NCBI RefSeq assembly: GCF_036327755.1
Contig: NZ_CP109596.1
Coordinates: forward strand, 5,952,001-6,016,000
Direction of reading: 5' to 3'
DNA: 64,000 nucleotides
Source: Nocardia sp. NBC_01503
GTDB lineage: Bacteria; Actinomycetota; Actinomycetes; Mycobacteriales; Mycobacteriaceae
The position numbers and the translations under genes were made by a program. Positions 6,224 through 17,663 of the stretch are shown here, piece after piece. The first letter of the stretch is position 1; the number at the start of each line of letters is the position of its first letter. Below the pieces are notes generated by a model. It was not told where the DNA came from. It saw nothing but the letters and a program-made list of their open reading frames with translations, and made no database searches.

Positions 6224-7030
6224 TCAATATCCGAGAACCGGGGGGTAAGCGAAGGCGGCGAGATCGTCCAGGTTTTGCTGTGCCAGCTCGATGTTGGCTT
6301 GCGCCGCGGCGGTCGCGGCGCCGGCGGCCGCCCCTGCTCCAGCGCCGATTCCACTGCCGATGGCTGTGGTGGCCGCGGTGACCGGAAGTGCGCCCAGCAC
6401 CGCCACGCCCGCGCCGACACCCGCTCCGGCCAGGGCGCCCGCCCCGGCTCCGGCGACCGGCCCGACTACAGCTCCGGCCGCACCGCCGATCGCGCCGCCT
6501 ACGACGGTGCCGACCATACAACCGACAATCGGCACCGGAGCTCCGGCAATGCACCCGACAGTGGCTCCGGCGGTCGCACCGATCGGCGGGCCGACGGCGA
6601 GTCCGGCGGCCGTGCCCACTGCCGCACCGAGTCCGGCGCCGGTTGTCGCTGTGATCGCTGCCGTGGCCGCGCCGATGCCTACTCCGACCCCGGCGCCCAC
6701 CAGGGCTCCCTGGGCGGCACCTTGGGCCGCGCCGTCGGCGGCACCTTGAACCGCTGCTGCGCCGACCAGGTCACGGCGGCGCTGATCAATCAGCGGAAGG
6801 TACTCGGGCGCCGGTGTGGGCGCTTGCCGGGACTCCGGGTCGGCGGGCGTGAAATCCGGCAGGTCGCGTGGTTTGCCGGGGGATGGCGGTGCGTCGACCA
6901 CTTCGACCGAGGATGCGGTTCCTGGCTCGACCTGATCGACATCCCCCGCCGAGGCGATTGCCGAACCCGTGACCATCATTGCCAGTACTGCTGTCGCCGA
7001 GGTTGTGATTTTCGTGATCCGTGAGCGCAT
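6224..7030 (-). CDS. exported Ala/Gly-rich glycine-zipper protein
   Basis: 268 aa. A Sec signal peptide (TTSATAVLAMMVTGSAIASA, cleavage near residue 28) is followed by a Pro/Asp-rich stretch to about residue 75. Then come about 155 residues of GxxxG/AxxxG glycine-zipper repeats such as GAAQGALVGAGVGVGIG and GGAIGGAAGAVVGPVAG, with two cysteines (GCIAG, GCMVG), and a Gln/Asn-rich tail ending YPPVLGY. Glycine zippers pack helices in membranes and can form oligomers. Whether this protein inserts in the inner membrane or the mycomembrane is not known. It is divergent from the first RafH-like gene, with a DosR-like box between them. Confidence 0.85.
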   Translation of the reverse strand: MRSRITKITTSATAVLAMMVTGSAIASAGDVDQVEPGTASSVEVVDAPPSPGKPRDLPDFTPADPESRQAPTPAPEYLPLIDQRRRDLVGAAAVQGAADGAAQGAAQGALVGAGVGVGIGAATAAITATTGAGLGAAVGTAAGLAVGPPIGATAGATVGCIAGAPVPIVGCMVGTVVGGAIGGAAGAVVGPVAGAGAGALAGAGVGAGVAVLGALPVTAATTAIGSGIGAGAGAAAGAATAAAQANIELAQQNLDDLAAFAYPPVLGY

Positions 7031-12518: not shown

Positions 12519-12662
12519 AACGCCTTCGGCAAGAAGAGATTTCGACCATGTACCAAAGACTGCGCGGCGGCAGGGATCCGCCCTCGACCGCATTTCGCCG
12601 GTTGTGGAGGCGATACCCCGAGCCCGGCGAATCGGATGAATCTCGAGAAAAGAAAGGTACAG

Positions 12663-15600
12663 ATGGTGGAAAACACACGCCTCGATACGGTCGAAAGGGG
12701 GTGGGGGGTAGCGTCCTGGTGTCTTCGGTTACTGGCCGTGGGAATTCCGGCGATCGGGTTTCTGCTGTTGAGCGGGTCATCGGCGCAGGCGCAAGGTCCG
12801 GACAATCCGTTCGCGGGCCTGAGTGATCAGGTGAACGATTTCGCCCGGTCCGTTCCGGCGATCGTCTTGCCGGAATCGAGTCCCGCGGTGACTGACATCG
12901 ACGGCGGCGCACCCGCGGTTCCCGACCCGGCGGGGCAGCCGCTGGGCCAGCTCGGTGACGCGCTCGCCGCGGTGTTCGTGGATCAGCAACGTCACGACGC
13001 ACCGGCCCCCGTGACCGCGGATCCGATTCCCGCCACCGTACTGGAGGATTCGCCCGTCGAAGGTGCGCTGGCGGATCTGCGGACCGCCGCGCAACCCTTG
13101 GTGGACACGGTCTCCGATGCGGTCTCCGGACTCCGGCATCAGGTGGAGCCGCGCGCACCCGATCATCCGCCCACCGATCTGATTCTGCCGTCTATCGACG
13201 AAAGTGGTTGCACGGCAGCAGGATGCGAGAACCAGGTCGGCGCCGCCGCCCTGGATCTCGGGATCGAGGCCGATCGCGCGTTCGGTGCGTTCATCGCCGA
13301 TCCGGAGAGCTTCGCCCACACCGTCATCGATCCCGCGGTGCGGCACTTTCTCGCCGATCCGGGCGAGTCGGTGCGAGCCGCGGTGACCGCGTTGGCGGCG
13401 CCGGGAGCCGTGCTGGTCGATCCGCGTGCGGCACTGGCCGCCGCGGCGACGGCGGTCGGCGGAGCGGAGTTGGCCGCGTGCGTGGATGTGTTGTTCGATT
13501 CGCGTGTGCTGCCCCTGGCGGGTGACCTGCTGGCCGCCGTCGGTGGCGCTGCGGCGGTTTCGCTGGGAGCCGGAGCCCTCGGCGGCGTGCTGGGTGGAAT
13601 CACCACCGGAATCTCGGGTGCGTTCGCGGGTGGCCTGCTGGGTCTGCTGAATCCACTGGCTCCGATACTCGGCGGTGTTCCGGGTGCGGTGCTGGGCGGA
13701 TTGCTGGGCGCGATTCCGGGTCTGGTGATCGGAGCGCTCACGGGTCTGCCCGGTGGCGCTCTGATCGGCTGGTTGCTCACGGCCGTGGCGGATGCCCTGC
13801 TGGGCGCTCTGCTCGGTGCGGGGGCCGGATTCCTGGGCCCGAACCTGCTGCTTCCGTTGCTGGGCGCGCTGCTCGGCGGAGCCGTCAGCGCCGTGCTCGG
13901 CGGCGGTGTGCTGCTACTCGGCGCACTCGGAATCGCGTTGGCTGCCTTGACCGCACCGATATGGTTGCCGGTCCTGCTGCTGGCATTGCCGCTGGTGCTG
14001 ATTCCGCTCATTCCGGCATTGCTGGTCGCGTTGCCGTTGATGCTGCCCGCGTTGATCATCGGCGCTGTCGCCGCACTGATCACCGTGCTGGTCGGCGGTG
14101 CGCTGCTGGCGATCGGAGCGGTGGCGTTGGTGCTGACGATCCTGTTGGCGCCGATCTGGATTCCGATCGTGATCGTCATCGCGATCGGCTACGTGGTCTG
14201 GTCGATCTTCTGGATCGTGGTCGGCTTCGTGCTGGCGACACCGATCGGGATCATCGGCATCATCGGATTGCCCTTCGTCATCGCCGGAGTCGTCGTAATG
14301 GCGGCCATGGTGATCGGCGGAGGCGTGGCCATCCTCGCCATCGCTGTTGTGTCACTGCCGATTTGGTGGCCTGTCGTCGGCCTGATTCTGGCCGGTATGA
14401 CAGCCGTCGCGATCATCACGCCCGCGCTGGCACTGTTCTTCCTGCTGGTGCTGCCACTGGCGATGTTCGCGGCCGGGTTGGCGCTGGGGGCGGTGGTGTA
14501 TCTGCTGTCGATGGTGCTGATGCTGCCCGTCGCGATCCTCGCCGGCGCCGCGTTCGCACTGATGGGCGCGATAGGCGGAGCCCTGGCGATGACCGTGCTG
14601 GGTCTGGGTCTGCTGCTGGCGCCGTTGGCGCTGGCAGTTGCGGCGCTGCCCGGGATGCTCGCCGGAGCGCTGCTGGGCCTGTTGGCGGGTCTGGTGGTCG
14701 CGGTGATCACGACTCCGCTGGGCGCCCTGTTGGGTGCGCTGCTGGGTGCGTTGAATCCGCTGAATCTGCTGGGAGCGTTGGCCGGTGCCGTGCTCGGTGT
14801 GCTGATCGGGATGATCGCCGGTGGTATCGCCGGTGTCGTTATCGGTGCGGTACTCGGCGCGCTGCTGGGTTCGTTGCTGGTGGCCTTGGTTTCGGCACTG
14901 ATCACGGGTCTGCTGGGATTCCTGCTGGCCGCGCCTCCGGGCGTGCTGCTCGGTGGTTCGGTGCTGGTCCTCGCGGCGCTGCCGTGGGCCGCGCTGGCCG
15001 CTGTCGCGGTGGGCGCGTTGCTCGTGGCGAACCATGTCACCGCCTGGCAGGCGGGGATGGGTGCGGCCGACCTCGCGCAGCGGAGTCGGTTGTGGCAATC
15101 CGCCTGTGTGGCATGGCAACACAGCAGTCTGAAACGGTTCCTGGACGGCTTCACCGCGCGCTTCACATGCGACCTCGATGAGGTTGTCGCGGAGCTCGAT
15201 GCCTGGCGCCGCGGTCATGTCGATGCCGAGAACATCGGTTTCGGCGCGATCGTCGGTGCGCTGGTGGCCACCGGTCTGGCCGGTGCGGTCGCGGCGGTGC
15301 TGGGTGCGACCGGTGGGCTGCTCAGCCCGCTGAACCTGGTGGCCGGCATCCCGGGCGGGCTCTTCGGAGCGGTGCTCGGTGCGCAGATCGGCGGGATCGT
15401 CGGTGCCGCGCTGGCCGCGTTGCCCGGCGCGTTGGCGGGGATCGTCGTCGCGACGATCACCGACACGGTGTTGTCCGCCGTGCTCGGGGCGGTCACGGGC
15501 TATCTGTCCGGGACTGTGTCGGCGGTGGGCACCGGAGCGCTCTCCGGTGCCGGTCTCGGCGCCGCATCGGCAAGCATCATTACGCTGCTGGTCGGTGGAG

Positions 15601-16898
15601 TTGCCGGTCTGGCAACAGGATTCGGTGCGAGCGCGGTGACCGCGGTGGTGCTCGGCGTGCTGTCGGTGCTGCCGTTCGCGGTGGCTGCCGCGGTGGTGCT
15701 GTTGACCGGACTCGTGCCGGCGGTGGCGGCCTTCATCGCGCCGCTGATCGTTCCGGTGCTTGTCATCGGTGCGGTGCTGGTGCTGGCGGCGATTCCCGCG
15801 GTGATCCTGGTGATCGGCGCGTTGGTCGTCGGTGCGGTGGCGGCCTTGTTCCTGGGGCCGCTCGCACTGCCGGTGTTCGCGGTGGCGCTGCTCGGTGCTC
15901 TCGCCGTGCTCGCCGGTGCGGCCGCGCTGGCAGTGGTGCTGTCGATCGGCTTCACGGTGATTGTCGGTGTGCCACTGGCCATTGCGGCCTATCTGGCCTT
16001 CCAAGCGCTGGCGGGTCTGCCGATCCTGGTGCTGGCGGGTGTGCTCACCGCACTCGCGCTGGCTGCCACGGCAGCGCTCGTGGTCGCGGTCGGCGGAGCT
16101 GTCGCGCTGATGGTGCAGGGCGTGGTGACCGCGGTGACCGCGGTGTTCGCCTTCCCGGCGGCCATTGTGGTGGGCGCGGTGCTCGGTGGACTGACGGGAC
16201 TGCTGGTCAGTCCGGTGGTCGGCGGGCTCGGGGCCTTGCTGGGCGCACTGCTCGGTGCGGTGGTCGGCTTGTCGAATCCGGTCAACCTGTTCGGCGCGGC
16301 GCCCGGCGCCGCTGTCGGAATGGGATTCGGCTGGGTGCTCGGTGCCACTGCCGGGATCGTGCCCGGCGCGGTACTGGCGGCGTTGTTCGCGGTGCTGGCT
16401 ACCGCGGTGGCGCATGCCGGTTTCGGTGCGGTCGCGGCCGGGTCGTTCGCCGGCGGTGCCGGTGCGTGGCTCGGTCTCGCCGTGGGCGCGGGCGTCGGTG
16501 CGATCCTGCCGCGCCGGGACGGTGACGTCCCGGAGGTGGATTGGGACAGGGCCTTGTCCGCGCTGGACCGGATCCTGGACGGACACGTATGTGTTCCGCA
16601 GGGCTGCGGTTGCCAGGAGAGCCCGGCGCCCGGTGCGTCCGCTCCGGCCGAAAGCGGTTGCGGTGGTGCCGAACCGGCTGTCCCGGAGGCGCCGGTGGTG
16701 GTCGAGACCCCCGGTACTTCGCAGGGGTCCGAGCAGCACTATCCGCTACAGGCCGGCACCGGTGGTACCGGAGAGGATGCCGGCTCGGCCGAGTCCTCGT
16801 CGGCGCCGCTGACCGGAATGAGTATGGCCGCACTGGGAATGCTGCTGGCGGCCTTGGTCGCCGCGGCGGCGACGCGGCGTGAACGCGTCGATCAGTAG
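12663..16898 (+). CDS. giant hydrophobic glycine-zipper protein with LPXTG-like sorting signal
   Basis: 1411 aa from ATG 12663, preferred over 12636 because AAAGG lies just upstream. Signal peptide (WCLRLLAVGIPAIGFLLLSG, cleavage near SAQAQ). A soluble region to about 290 contains a Cys pair (SGCTAAGCENQ). A very hydrophobic Leu/Gly/Ala/Val region with dozens of GxLLGxLLG zippers spans about 300-790. A hydrophilic insert follows (about 793-862, HVTAWQAGMGAADLAQRSRL onward), then a second hydrophobic region to about 1285. A Cys-rich Pro/Glu linker contains VPQGCGC. The C-terminus is APLTG (1381-1385), a hydrophobic stretch and RRER, a cell-wall sorting signal with Ala in place of Leu at position 1 of LPXTG. 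A sortase gene follows. Function unknown. Confidence 0.88.
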   Translation: MVENTRLDTVERGWGVASWCLRLLAVGIPAIGFLLLSGSSAQAQGPDNPFAGLSDQVNDFARSVPAIVLPESSPAVTDIDGGAPAVPDPAGQPLGQLGDALAAVFVDQQRHDAPAPVTADPIPATVLEDSPVEGALADLRTAAQPLVDTVSDAVSGLRHQVEPRAPDHPPTDLILPSIDESGCTAAGCENQVGAAALDLGIEADRAFGAFIADPESFAHTVIDPAVRHFLADPGESVRAAVTALAAPGAVLVDPRAALAAAATAVGGAELAACVDVLFDSRVLPLAGDLLAAVGGAAAVSLGAGALGGVLGGITTGISGAFAGGLLGLLNPLAPILGGVPGAVLGGLLGAIPGLVIGALTGLPGGALIGWLLTAVADALLGALLGAGAGFLGPNLLLPLLGALLGGAVSAVLGGGVLLLGALGIALAALTAPIWLPVLLLALPLVLIPLIPALLVALPLMLPALIIGAVAALITVLVGGALLAIGAVALVLTILLAPIWIPIVIVIAIGYVVWSIFWIVVGFVLATPIGIIGIIGLPFVIAGVVVMAAMVIGGGVAILAIAVVSLPIWWPVVGLILAGMTAVAIITPALALFFLLVLPLAMFAAGLALGAVVYLLSMVLMLPVAILAGAAFALMGAIGGALAMTVLGLGLLLAPLALAVAALPGMLAGALLGLLAGLVVAVITTPLGALLGALLGALNPLNLLGALAGAVLGVLIGMIAGGIAGVVIGAVLGALLGSLLVALVSALITGLLGFLLAAPPGVLLGGSVLVLAALPWAALAAVAVGALLVANHVTAWQAGMGAADLAQRSRLWQSACVAWQHSSLKRFLDGFTARFTCDLDEVVAELDAWRRGHVDAENIGFGAIVGALVATGLAGAVAAVLGATGGLLSPLNLVAGIPGGLFGAVLGAQIGGIVGAALAALPGALAGIVVATITDTVLSAVLGAVTGYLSGTVSAVGTGALSGAGLGAASASIITLLVGGVAGLATGFGASAVTAVVLGVLSVLPFAVAAAVVLLTGLVPAVAAFIAPLIVPVLVIGAVLVLAAIPAVILVIGALVVGAVAALFLGPLALPVFAVALLGALAVLAGAAALAVVLSIGFTVIVGVPLAIAAYLAFQALAGLPILVLAGVLTALALAATAALVVAVGGAVALMVQGVVTAVTAVFAFPAAIVVGAVLGGLTGLLVSPVVGGLGALLGALLGAVVGLSNPVNLFGAAPGAAVGMGFGWVLGATAGIVPGAVLAALFAVLATAVAHAGFGAVAAGSFAGGAGAWLGLAVGAGVGAILPRRDGDVPEVDWDRALSALDRILDGHVCVPQGCGCQESPAPGASAPAESGCGGAEPAVPEAPVVVETPGTSQGSEQHYPLQAGTGGTGEDAGSAESSSAPLTGMSMAALGMLLAALVAAAATRRERVDQ

Positions 16899-16979
16899 AT
16901 GAAAGCGGCGGATGCCGGTGGCGGACTCATCACTTCGCCCCGGCATCCGCTCGCGATCGGCGATGCGCGGGAAAGGACG

Positions 16980-17663
16980 ATGATGGTGCGAGCGGATCGA
17001 ATCGGTGGGATGAGACCGCGGGCCGTCTGGTCGGCACTGCTCTGGCTGCTGCTGTGGGTACTGCTCGCCGTCGCGTTACCGACGGTGATACCTCATGGCG
17101 GGCCTCCCGATGAGAGCTCTGCCGAAACGGTCCACGAGACCGCGCCGGTTATCGTGGCGCCGCCGCTTCCAGCGGGGGAGGGCTTCCGCCCGGACCGAAT
17201 CAGGTTGCCGCGCTTGAGTATCGATGCCGCGGTCACGCCCGCCGGTACCACGGTCGCCTATGACCCCTTCCTCGGCCGAGCGGTGGACAGTTTCGGTGTT
17301 CCCGACGATATGCGCTCCACCACGTGGTGGTCGGAGGGCCCGGCACCCGGTTCCGGGGGACTGGCGGTCATCCTCGGACATACCCAGATCGGTGGCGGAT
17401 ACGGGGTTTTCAACGATATCGGCACCCTGGGGCCCGGAGAGCGGATCGATGTGACCGGAGTCGATGCCGCCGCGAGTTTCGTTGTGCGTGAGGTTGTTTC
17501 AGGTATCGACAAACGTGACCCGGGCAACCTGTCCCGGGTGCTGTCCGATCACGCGGACACCGCGGGCATCGCCTTGATCACCTGCGGTGGATTGTTCGAC
17601 GCCGATCGCCGAGCGAGTGCGGACAACATCGTCGTCATCGCCGAGCGAGTCGGTTCGGCCTAG
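16980..17663 (+). CDS. class F-like sortase
   Basis: 227 aa from ATG 16980, seven bases after GAAAGGA; ATG 16983 is the alternative. One N-terminal transmembrane anchor (WSALLWLLLWVLLAVALPTVI) is followed by the sortase beta-barrel. The catalytic residues are His134 (ILGHTQIGGGYGVF), Cys202 (LITCGG) and an Arg just after it (FDADRRASADNIVV). The TCGGxFD...DNIVV pattern fits actinobacterial class F sortases. Sortases cut LPXTG-like signals and attach proteins to the wall. The preceding gene, 81 bp upstream, ends in such a signal and is the obvious substrate. Confidence 0.92.
   Translation: MMVRADRIGGMRPRAVWSALLWLLLWVLLAVALPTVIPHGGPPDESSAETVHETAPVIVAPPLPAGEGFRPDRIRLPRLSIDAAVTPAGTTVAYDPFLGRAVDSFGVPDDMRSTTWWSEGPAPGSGGLAVILGHTQIGGGYGVFNDIGTLGPGERIDVTGVDAAASFVVREVVSGIDKRDPGNLSRVLSDHADTAGIALITCGGLFDADRRASADNIVVIAERVGSA

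Follow-up and report, generated by a model that had tools for sequence, protein, structure and literature searches.

The window, a 64,000-nucleotide stretch of the Nocardia sp. NBC_01503 genome, encodes in succession an exported or N-anchored helical protein, a small single-span membrane protein, a giant glycine-zipper protein (hereafter the giant) and a sortase (Table 1). The giant was described in an earlier note on this DNA as a protein of roughly 1411 aa with a signal peptide, two zipper blocks split by a hydrophilic insert, and cysteines at both ends, and each of these features was borne out. The open reading frame is as expected, and the A-x-A-Q signature of the predicted signal peptidase site is kept in the alignment of all five Nocardia giants. 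Cysteines are found at positions 183, 188 and 273, and again in the C-terminal linker at 1310, 1317, 1333 and one further position. The insert accounts for 16 of the 19 charged residues found between positions 285 and 1283, and the stretches free of D, E, K and R in the two blocks extend over 425 and 349 residues. Blocks 1 and 2 contain 21 and 16 copies of GxxxGxxxG, where shuffled sequences give 2.2 and 1.9, and none of 500 shuffles reached the observed counts.

Table 1. Positions in the window of the four genes and of the parts of the giant glycine-zipper protein.
Feature	Coordinates	Strand	Giant residues	Remarks
Exported or N-anchored helical protein, 250 aa	11577..12329	+		RC[DEH][IFV]DGGLL after the membrane segment
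Single-span membrane protein, 48 aa	12372..12518	+		RLRRTAVW...ALGVTxGW
Giant glycine-zipper protein, 1411 aa	12663..16898	+		ATG at 12663; alternative ATG upstream at 12636 (ORF 12636-16898)
Signal peptide	12663..12791	+	1-43	Predicted cleavage between AQA and Q; homologue alignment
Hydrophilic N-terminal domain	12792..13514	+	44-284	Cys183 and Cys188 invariant
Hydrophobic block 1	13515..15068	+	285-802	A1 290-425, B1 426-655, A1b 656-800
Hydrophilic insert	15069..15230	+	803-856	Charge count
Hydrophobic block 2	15231..16517	+	857-1285	Zipper A2, spacer B2, zipper A2b; duplicate of block 1
Cys/Pro/Gly-rich acidic linker	16518..16739	+	1286-1359	Alignment
YPLQAGTGG	16740..16766	+	1360-1368	Probable true sorting motif
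APLTG	16803..16817	+		Named in the earlier note; not conserved in homologues
C-terminal hydrophobic helix and RRERVDQ tail of the sorting signal	16818..16895	+
Class F-like sortase, putatively dedicated to the giant	16899..17663	+		His161 and Cys229 (254-aa numbering); start at 16899 or 16980

Every giant homologue contains 33-35 candidate hydrophobic segments, nearly all of them between the signal peptide and the C-terminal signal, and about half of the segments in the giant have an estimated insertion energy near or below zero. The C-terminal sequence MSMAALGxLLAALxAAAAxRRERV is nearly invariant in the alignment of the Nocardia homologues. The giant has no sequence match in Pfam, NCBIfam, PHROG, PADLOC or the PDB, and an AlphaFold run with 12 block sequences did not yield a usable fold of the hydrophobic blocks (pLDDT 57, pTM 0.31). 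A phage origin, as a tape-measure-like protein, was considered and rejected, there being no phage, PHROG or PADLOC match.

When the two blocks were compared as profiles with hhalign, block 1 matched block 2 with a score of 142 over 377 columns. The maxima reached by the controls were 18 when columns were shuffled, 30 for reversed profiles, 59 when blocks of 20 columns were shuffled and 85 for blocks of 40. Four zipper domains (residues 290-425, 656-800, 856-995 and 1161-1285) are mutually related with 96-99% probability by profile comparison, each with a GxxxG run preceded by an (N/S)P(L/V)(N/A) element, and the spacers B1 and B2 are weakly related to each other. Since the block-to-block match lies above the controls, and so goes beyond biased composition, we conclude from the profiles that the giant is an internal duplication of the form A-B-A, insert, A-B-A, with four related zipper domains.

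The dN/dS ratio between giant homologues is 0.27-0.30 overall, and a value of about 0.3 indicates that the frame is a real gene under purifying selection. Together with conservation over the full length, this rules out a chance frame or one of many low-complexity zipper ORFs. A profile search of 152 Nocardia genomes found the giant in four, these being the window genome, Nocardia veterana, N. neocaledoniensis (two copies) and Nocardia sp. MH4. One further full-length giant was recovered from another genus of the family (genome G199) when 301 family, 399 order and 395 class genomes were searched. Weak profile matches in eight other genomes proved to be short zipper proteins, stress proteins or read-through frames and not relatives. 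The cassette is rare and patchy.

The giant, the helical protein and the 48-aa protein occur together in all six loci, and a sortase of one clade accompanies them in five, spanning two genera and two gene orders. The proposal that the giant is paired with its own sortase was thus upheld, and the suggestion of a wider envelope system is strengthened by these two further conserved, envelope-type partners. The helical protein (28-79% identity between loci) belongs to no Pfam family and has no match in the ten giant-free sister-sortase loci searched. In the five Nocardia loci the 48-aa protein immediately precedes the giant, and in L055 it adjoins the helical protein. At the MH4 locus and one N. 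neocaledoniensis locus the sortase lies upstream, separated by an S30AE_C-like gene and a desaturase, but the gene set is kept. The second N. neocaledoniensis giant, 83% identical to that of the window, has no sortase nearby; the other locus of that genome has one.

Several further genes surround the cassettes. On the reverse strand of the window, positions 6224-7030 encode an exported glycine-zipper protein with 22 GxxxGxxxG motifs, and a homologue 85% identical to it (L048 7304-8092) adjoins the second N. neocaledoniensis cassette, the one without a sortase. Near the cassette lie stress- or development-type regulators (WhiB, NarL-type response regulators, Usp, S30AE_C), and similar genes around it in other Nocardia suggest dormancy-type control. 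An FA_desaturase_2 gene is found near the cassette in three genomes (L033 12972-14186, which was tested against Pfam, L034 10492-11643 and L035 12511-13821). On the forward strand of the window, an open frame of 7738 aa (39112-62328) possibly encodes a very large modular synthase.

The sortase frame is open directly after the stop codon of the giant, and the 81-bp gap between the genes arises because the start was taken at 16980. The catalytic residues given previously as His134 and Cys202 likewise match with that start. The sortase itself proved to be real. It scores 46-47 bits against Pfam PF04203, and its AlphaFold model (pLDDT 84) has a sortase fold, matching solved sortases of the PDB in Foldseek with E values down to 4.6e-8. 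It is the one PF04203-detectable sortase in this Nocardia genome, directly downstream of the giant, a count to be read with caution because the PF04203 search missed the G199 sortase that the clade profile found. The catalytic His (GH) and Cys (TC) are present in the window sortase and in all 18 intact clade members. The window sortase and those of L100 and L104 have an Arg at C+9, a position held by G, Q, S, M or D in the remaining aligned members; in SrtE1, where the catalytic cysteine is C320, the active-site R329 occupies C+9 on strand β8 (PMC5148588).

The designation 'class F-like' holds in that class F (NF033748, PF04203) is the nearest curated class, having the same fold, the His and Cys and an N-terminal membrane helix. 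However, the window sortase scores only 85.1 bits on NCBIfam NF033748 and its relatives 54.9-90.8, against a curated cut-off of 166, whereas an ordinary Nocardia class F sortase scores 180. The canonical Arg is not conserved within the clade, and the cassette and sister sortases separate from ordinary Nocardia class F in a tree of 41 sequences with support of 100/100. Two clade homologues, at L105 (7630-8355, reverse strand) and L106 (7290-8057, reverse strand), have the His replaced by Glu or Arg and the Cys by Tyr, and are apparently inactive.

The sorting signal itself required revision. The APLTG sequence followed by a hydrophobic stretch and RRER is literally present at 16803-16895, as the earlier note had reported, but the residues at the APLTG position across the six giants are APLTG, GQLPG, APLAG, VPLTG, VQLTG and VGDSL. 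The note had named homologues lacking an APLTG tail as evidence against its reading; the motif is lost in three of the six, so this part of the claim is refuted, and by alignment APLTG is probably not the sorting motif of the giant. Twenty residues upstream of that position, [YF]P[LV][QH]A[AG]TGG is invariant in all six giants. A search of the window genome by the single DNA pattern for QA[AG]TGG near a C-terminus found the giant only.

As an independent test of the motif, we searched 401 family genomes with a profile built from the five cassette sortases, which led to a wider sortase clade, in genera without the giant. The proteins adjoining these sister sortases are of varied lengths, and the neighbours scanned gave no Pfam family above cut-off; examples of their C-terminal ends are SYPVQARTGAGP...helix...RRIRLRR and FPVQAQTGSGP...helix...SRRRRA. 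The pattern [YFWH]Px[QH][AS]xTG stands at the C-terminus of 11 non-giant proteins adjoining sister sortases. Over 20 loci read in six frames (365,720 bases) it occurs 16 times, in every case 12-58 residues ahead of a stop codon and nowhere else in the 366 kb. Fourteen of the 16 sites lie no more than 300 bp from a sortase, and the remaining two are giants of rearranged loci. Eighteen of the loci have a clade sortase that is catalytically intact, and the C-terminal pattern is present at 16 of them; at the other two, L099 and L109, the adjoining protein has the variant EPIQMPQTA instead of YPxQ[AS]xTG. No motif-bearing neighbour was found at L105 or L106, where the sortase homologues lack the His and Cys.

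A tripartite layout of motif, helix and basic tail is common to the giant (YPLQAGTGG, helix, RRER) and most neighbours of sister sortases, with a spacing from motif to helix in the giant of about 18, longer than in classical sorting signals. Motif-bearing neighbours at L095 (7124-7162) and L100 (9415-9465) end within 16 residues of the motif start and have no membrane tail. Two genomes of one genus have three clade sortases each, with separate neighbours (L097-L099 and L107-L109). Taken as sequence patterns, these data indicate that the clade sortase probably recognises YPxQAxTG. A full-text search for QAXTG returned no paper from the literature searched, and YPxQ[AS]xTG is apparently an unreported sorting code; we regard this new, testable code, belonging to a divergent sortase clade, as the most secure result of the analysis.

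Comparison with known systems places the clade and its substrate apart from each. The neighbours of ordinary Nocardia class F sortases end in AP[ED]TGAGG-type sequences, whereas those of the clade end in YPxQ[AS]xTG. The motif resembles that of the class E sortase SrtE (LAXTG) in that Ala replaces Pro (LAxTG; QAxTG here), but has Q or H rather than L at the first position, preceded by YP. It had been considered unexpected that a sortase should anchor a protein this hydrophobic, which is too strong: ChpA-C of Streptomyces and CwpA/CwpB of Actinoplanes are hydrophobic SrtE-type substrates fixed to the wall, although they lack long zipper blocks (PMC5148588, PMC13251363). Unlike them, the giant is 1411 aa long, lacks a chaplin domain and, judged by sequence pattern, appears helical with zippers. 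The Cdz glycine-zipper bacteriocins of Caulobacter share with it a surface-held glycine-zipper protein adjoining a small membrane protein, toxicity of the giant being a candidate property; in contrast, the giant has a signal peptide and a sortase rather than type I secretion, and its blocks are duplicated. The short exported zipper proteins of Nocardia and relatives, such as that at 6224-7030 in the window, similarly have one GxxxG region behind a signal peptide, but show no duplication and no sorting signal, with weak local similarity to single A elements.

Starting from the architecture, duplication, selection and co-inheritance described above, and from the conserved motif with its link to the sortase clade, we favour an explanation to which we give about an even chance: that a dedicated sortase covalently fixes the tail of a membrane-embedded giant to the cell wall, the four genes forming an envelope cassette. 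The giant would be exported via Sec and its signal peptide cleaved. The two A-B-A blocks, with about 30 hydrophobic segments and glycine-zipper packing, would sit in a membrane, and the Cys-bearing N-terminal domain and Cys/Pro-rich tail would lie outside it. We infer that the neighbouring sortase cuts YPLQAGTGG between T and G and that the new C-terminus is linked to the wall, which would staple a membrane-embedded protein to peptidoglycan; the helical and 48-aa proteins are probable assembly helpers. The signal peptide and the tripartite C-terminal signal imply that both ends of the giant are outside the plasma membrane, and what is established about Sec and sortases makes a membrane-embedded giant with its C-terminus transferred to the wall the simplest outcome. 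Against this explanation stand the long spacing from motif to helix, the variable residue at C+9 across the clade, the second N. neocaledoniensis giant with no sortase nearby and the unusable AlphaFold result for the blocks. In addition, a polytopic protein of the plasma membrane would ordinarily have positive-inside signals, and 425 residues without K or R offer none; this near absence of K and R argues against a routine plasma-membrane protein and keeps three other readings in play.

One of these, which we consider unlikely, is that the giant is fully exported and wall-anchored as a hydrophobic coat, making hyphae water-repellent in aerial growth or dormancy much as chaplins or CwpA/CwpB do. 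In Streptomyces and Actinoplanes, hydrophobic substrates of class E sortases function on the surface of hyphae (PMC5148588, PMC13251363), near-zero charge over hundreds of residues would fit, and regulators of stress or development type are nearby. Yet Sec would be expected to insert into the membrane those segments, about half, with insertion energies near or below zero; there is no chaplin family match in Pfam, the blocks look helical with zippers rather than β or amyloid, and the distribution is very patchy (four of 152 genomes) though the genus generally grows as hyphae. A wall-displayed, contact-dependent toxin like CdzC/CdzD, whose zippers enter the membrane of touching cells and to which the 48-aa protein gives immunity, is improbable. 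CdzC/D are surface-retained glycine-zipper proteins with immunity conferred by the small transmembrane CdzI (PMC5380434), the 48-aa membrane protein co-occurs at all six loci, and a competition trait would fit the patchiness. Against this, no type I secretion genes are found among the annotated cassette neighbours, the giant is far larger than the short CdzC/D zippers (a likeness by description), whole blocks are strongly conserved rather than diversified, and the helical partner is left unexplained.

The third reading, in which the sortase would fasten the outer mycolate layer to peptidoglycan through hydrophobic blocks lodged in that layer, is no more probable than the toxin. Nocardia and its kin are mycolate producers, and all hosts found belong to this one family. 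Three loci have an acyl-ACP-type desaturase by the cassette, a fatty-acyl AMP-ligase-like gene and an ACP-like gene lie downstream in the window, and the positive-inside signal would not be needed in the mycomembrane. On the other hand, we know of no route for α-helical multispan proteins to the mycomembrane, none of the genes seen beside the G199 cassette is a desaturase, and the sortase signal would put the C-terminus of the giant at the plasma membrane during processing. That the giant is a plain plasma-membrane protein, with the sortase acting elsewhere and the pairing incidental, might be argued from the lack of conservation of APLTG and from the second giant without an adjacent sortase, but is very nearly discounted by the invariant YPxQAxTG pattern common to unlike neighbours of sister sortases and by co-location of giant and sortase across rearranged loci.

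Returning to the wall-stapled, membrane-embedded giant, the fuller proposal, which we put forward tentatively and at somewhat less than even chance, is that a clade with its own code, YPxQ[AS]xTG, covalently staples a giant multi-span membrane protein of a few Nocardia and relatives to peptidoglycan as a membrane-to-wall rivet, possibly of the mycomembrane. To our knowledge there is no precedent for the use of a sortase as a fixed rivet of this kind. The physiological role of class F sortases has been stated as unknown (PMC13251363). The present clade, divergent and class F-like, is linked to substrates encoded next to it that have a common sorting code, so that its biochemistry is directly testable with peptides. 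If the giant is indeed both membrane-embedded and wall-linked, sortases would anchor a multi-span membrane protein, and the cassette would offer a candidate mechanism by which a membrane, possibly the mycomembrane, is kept attached to the wall.
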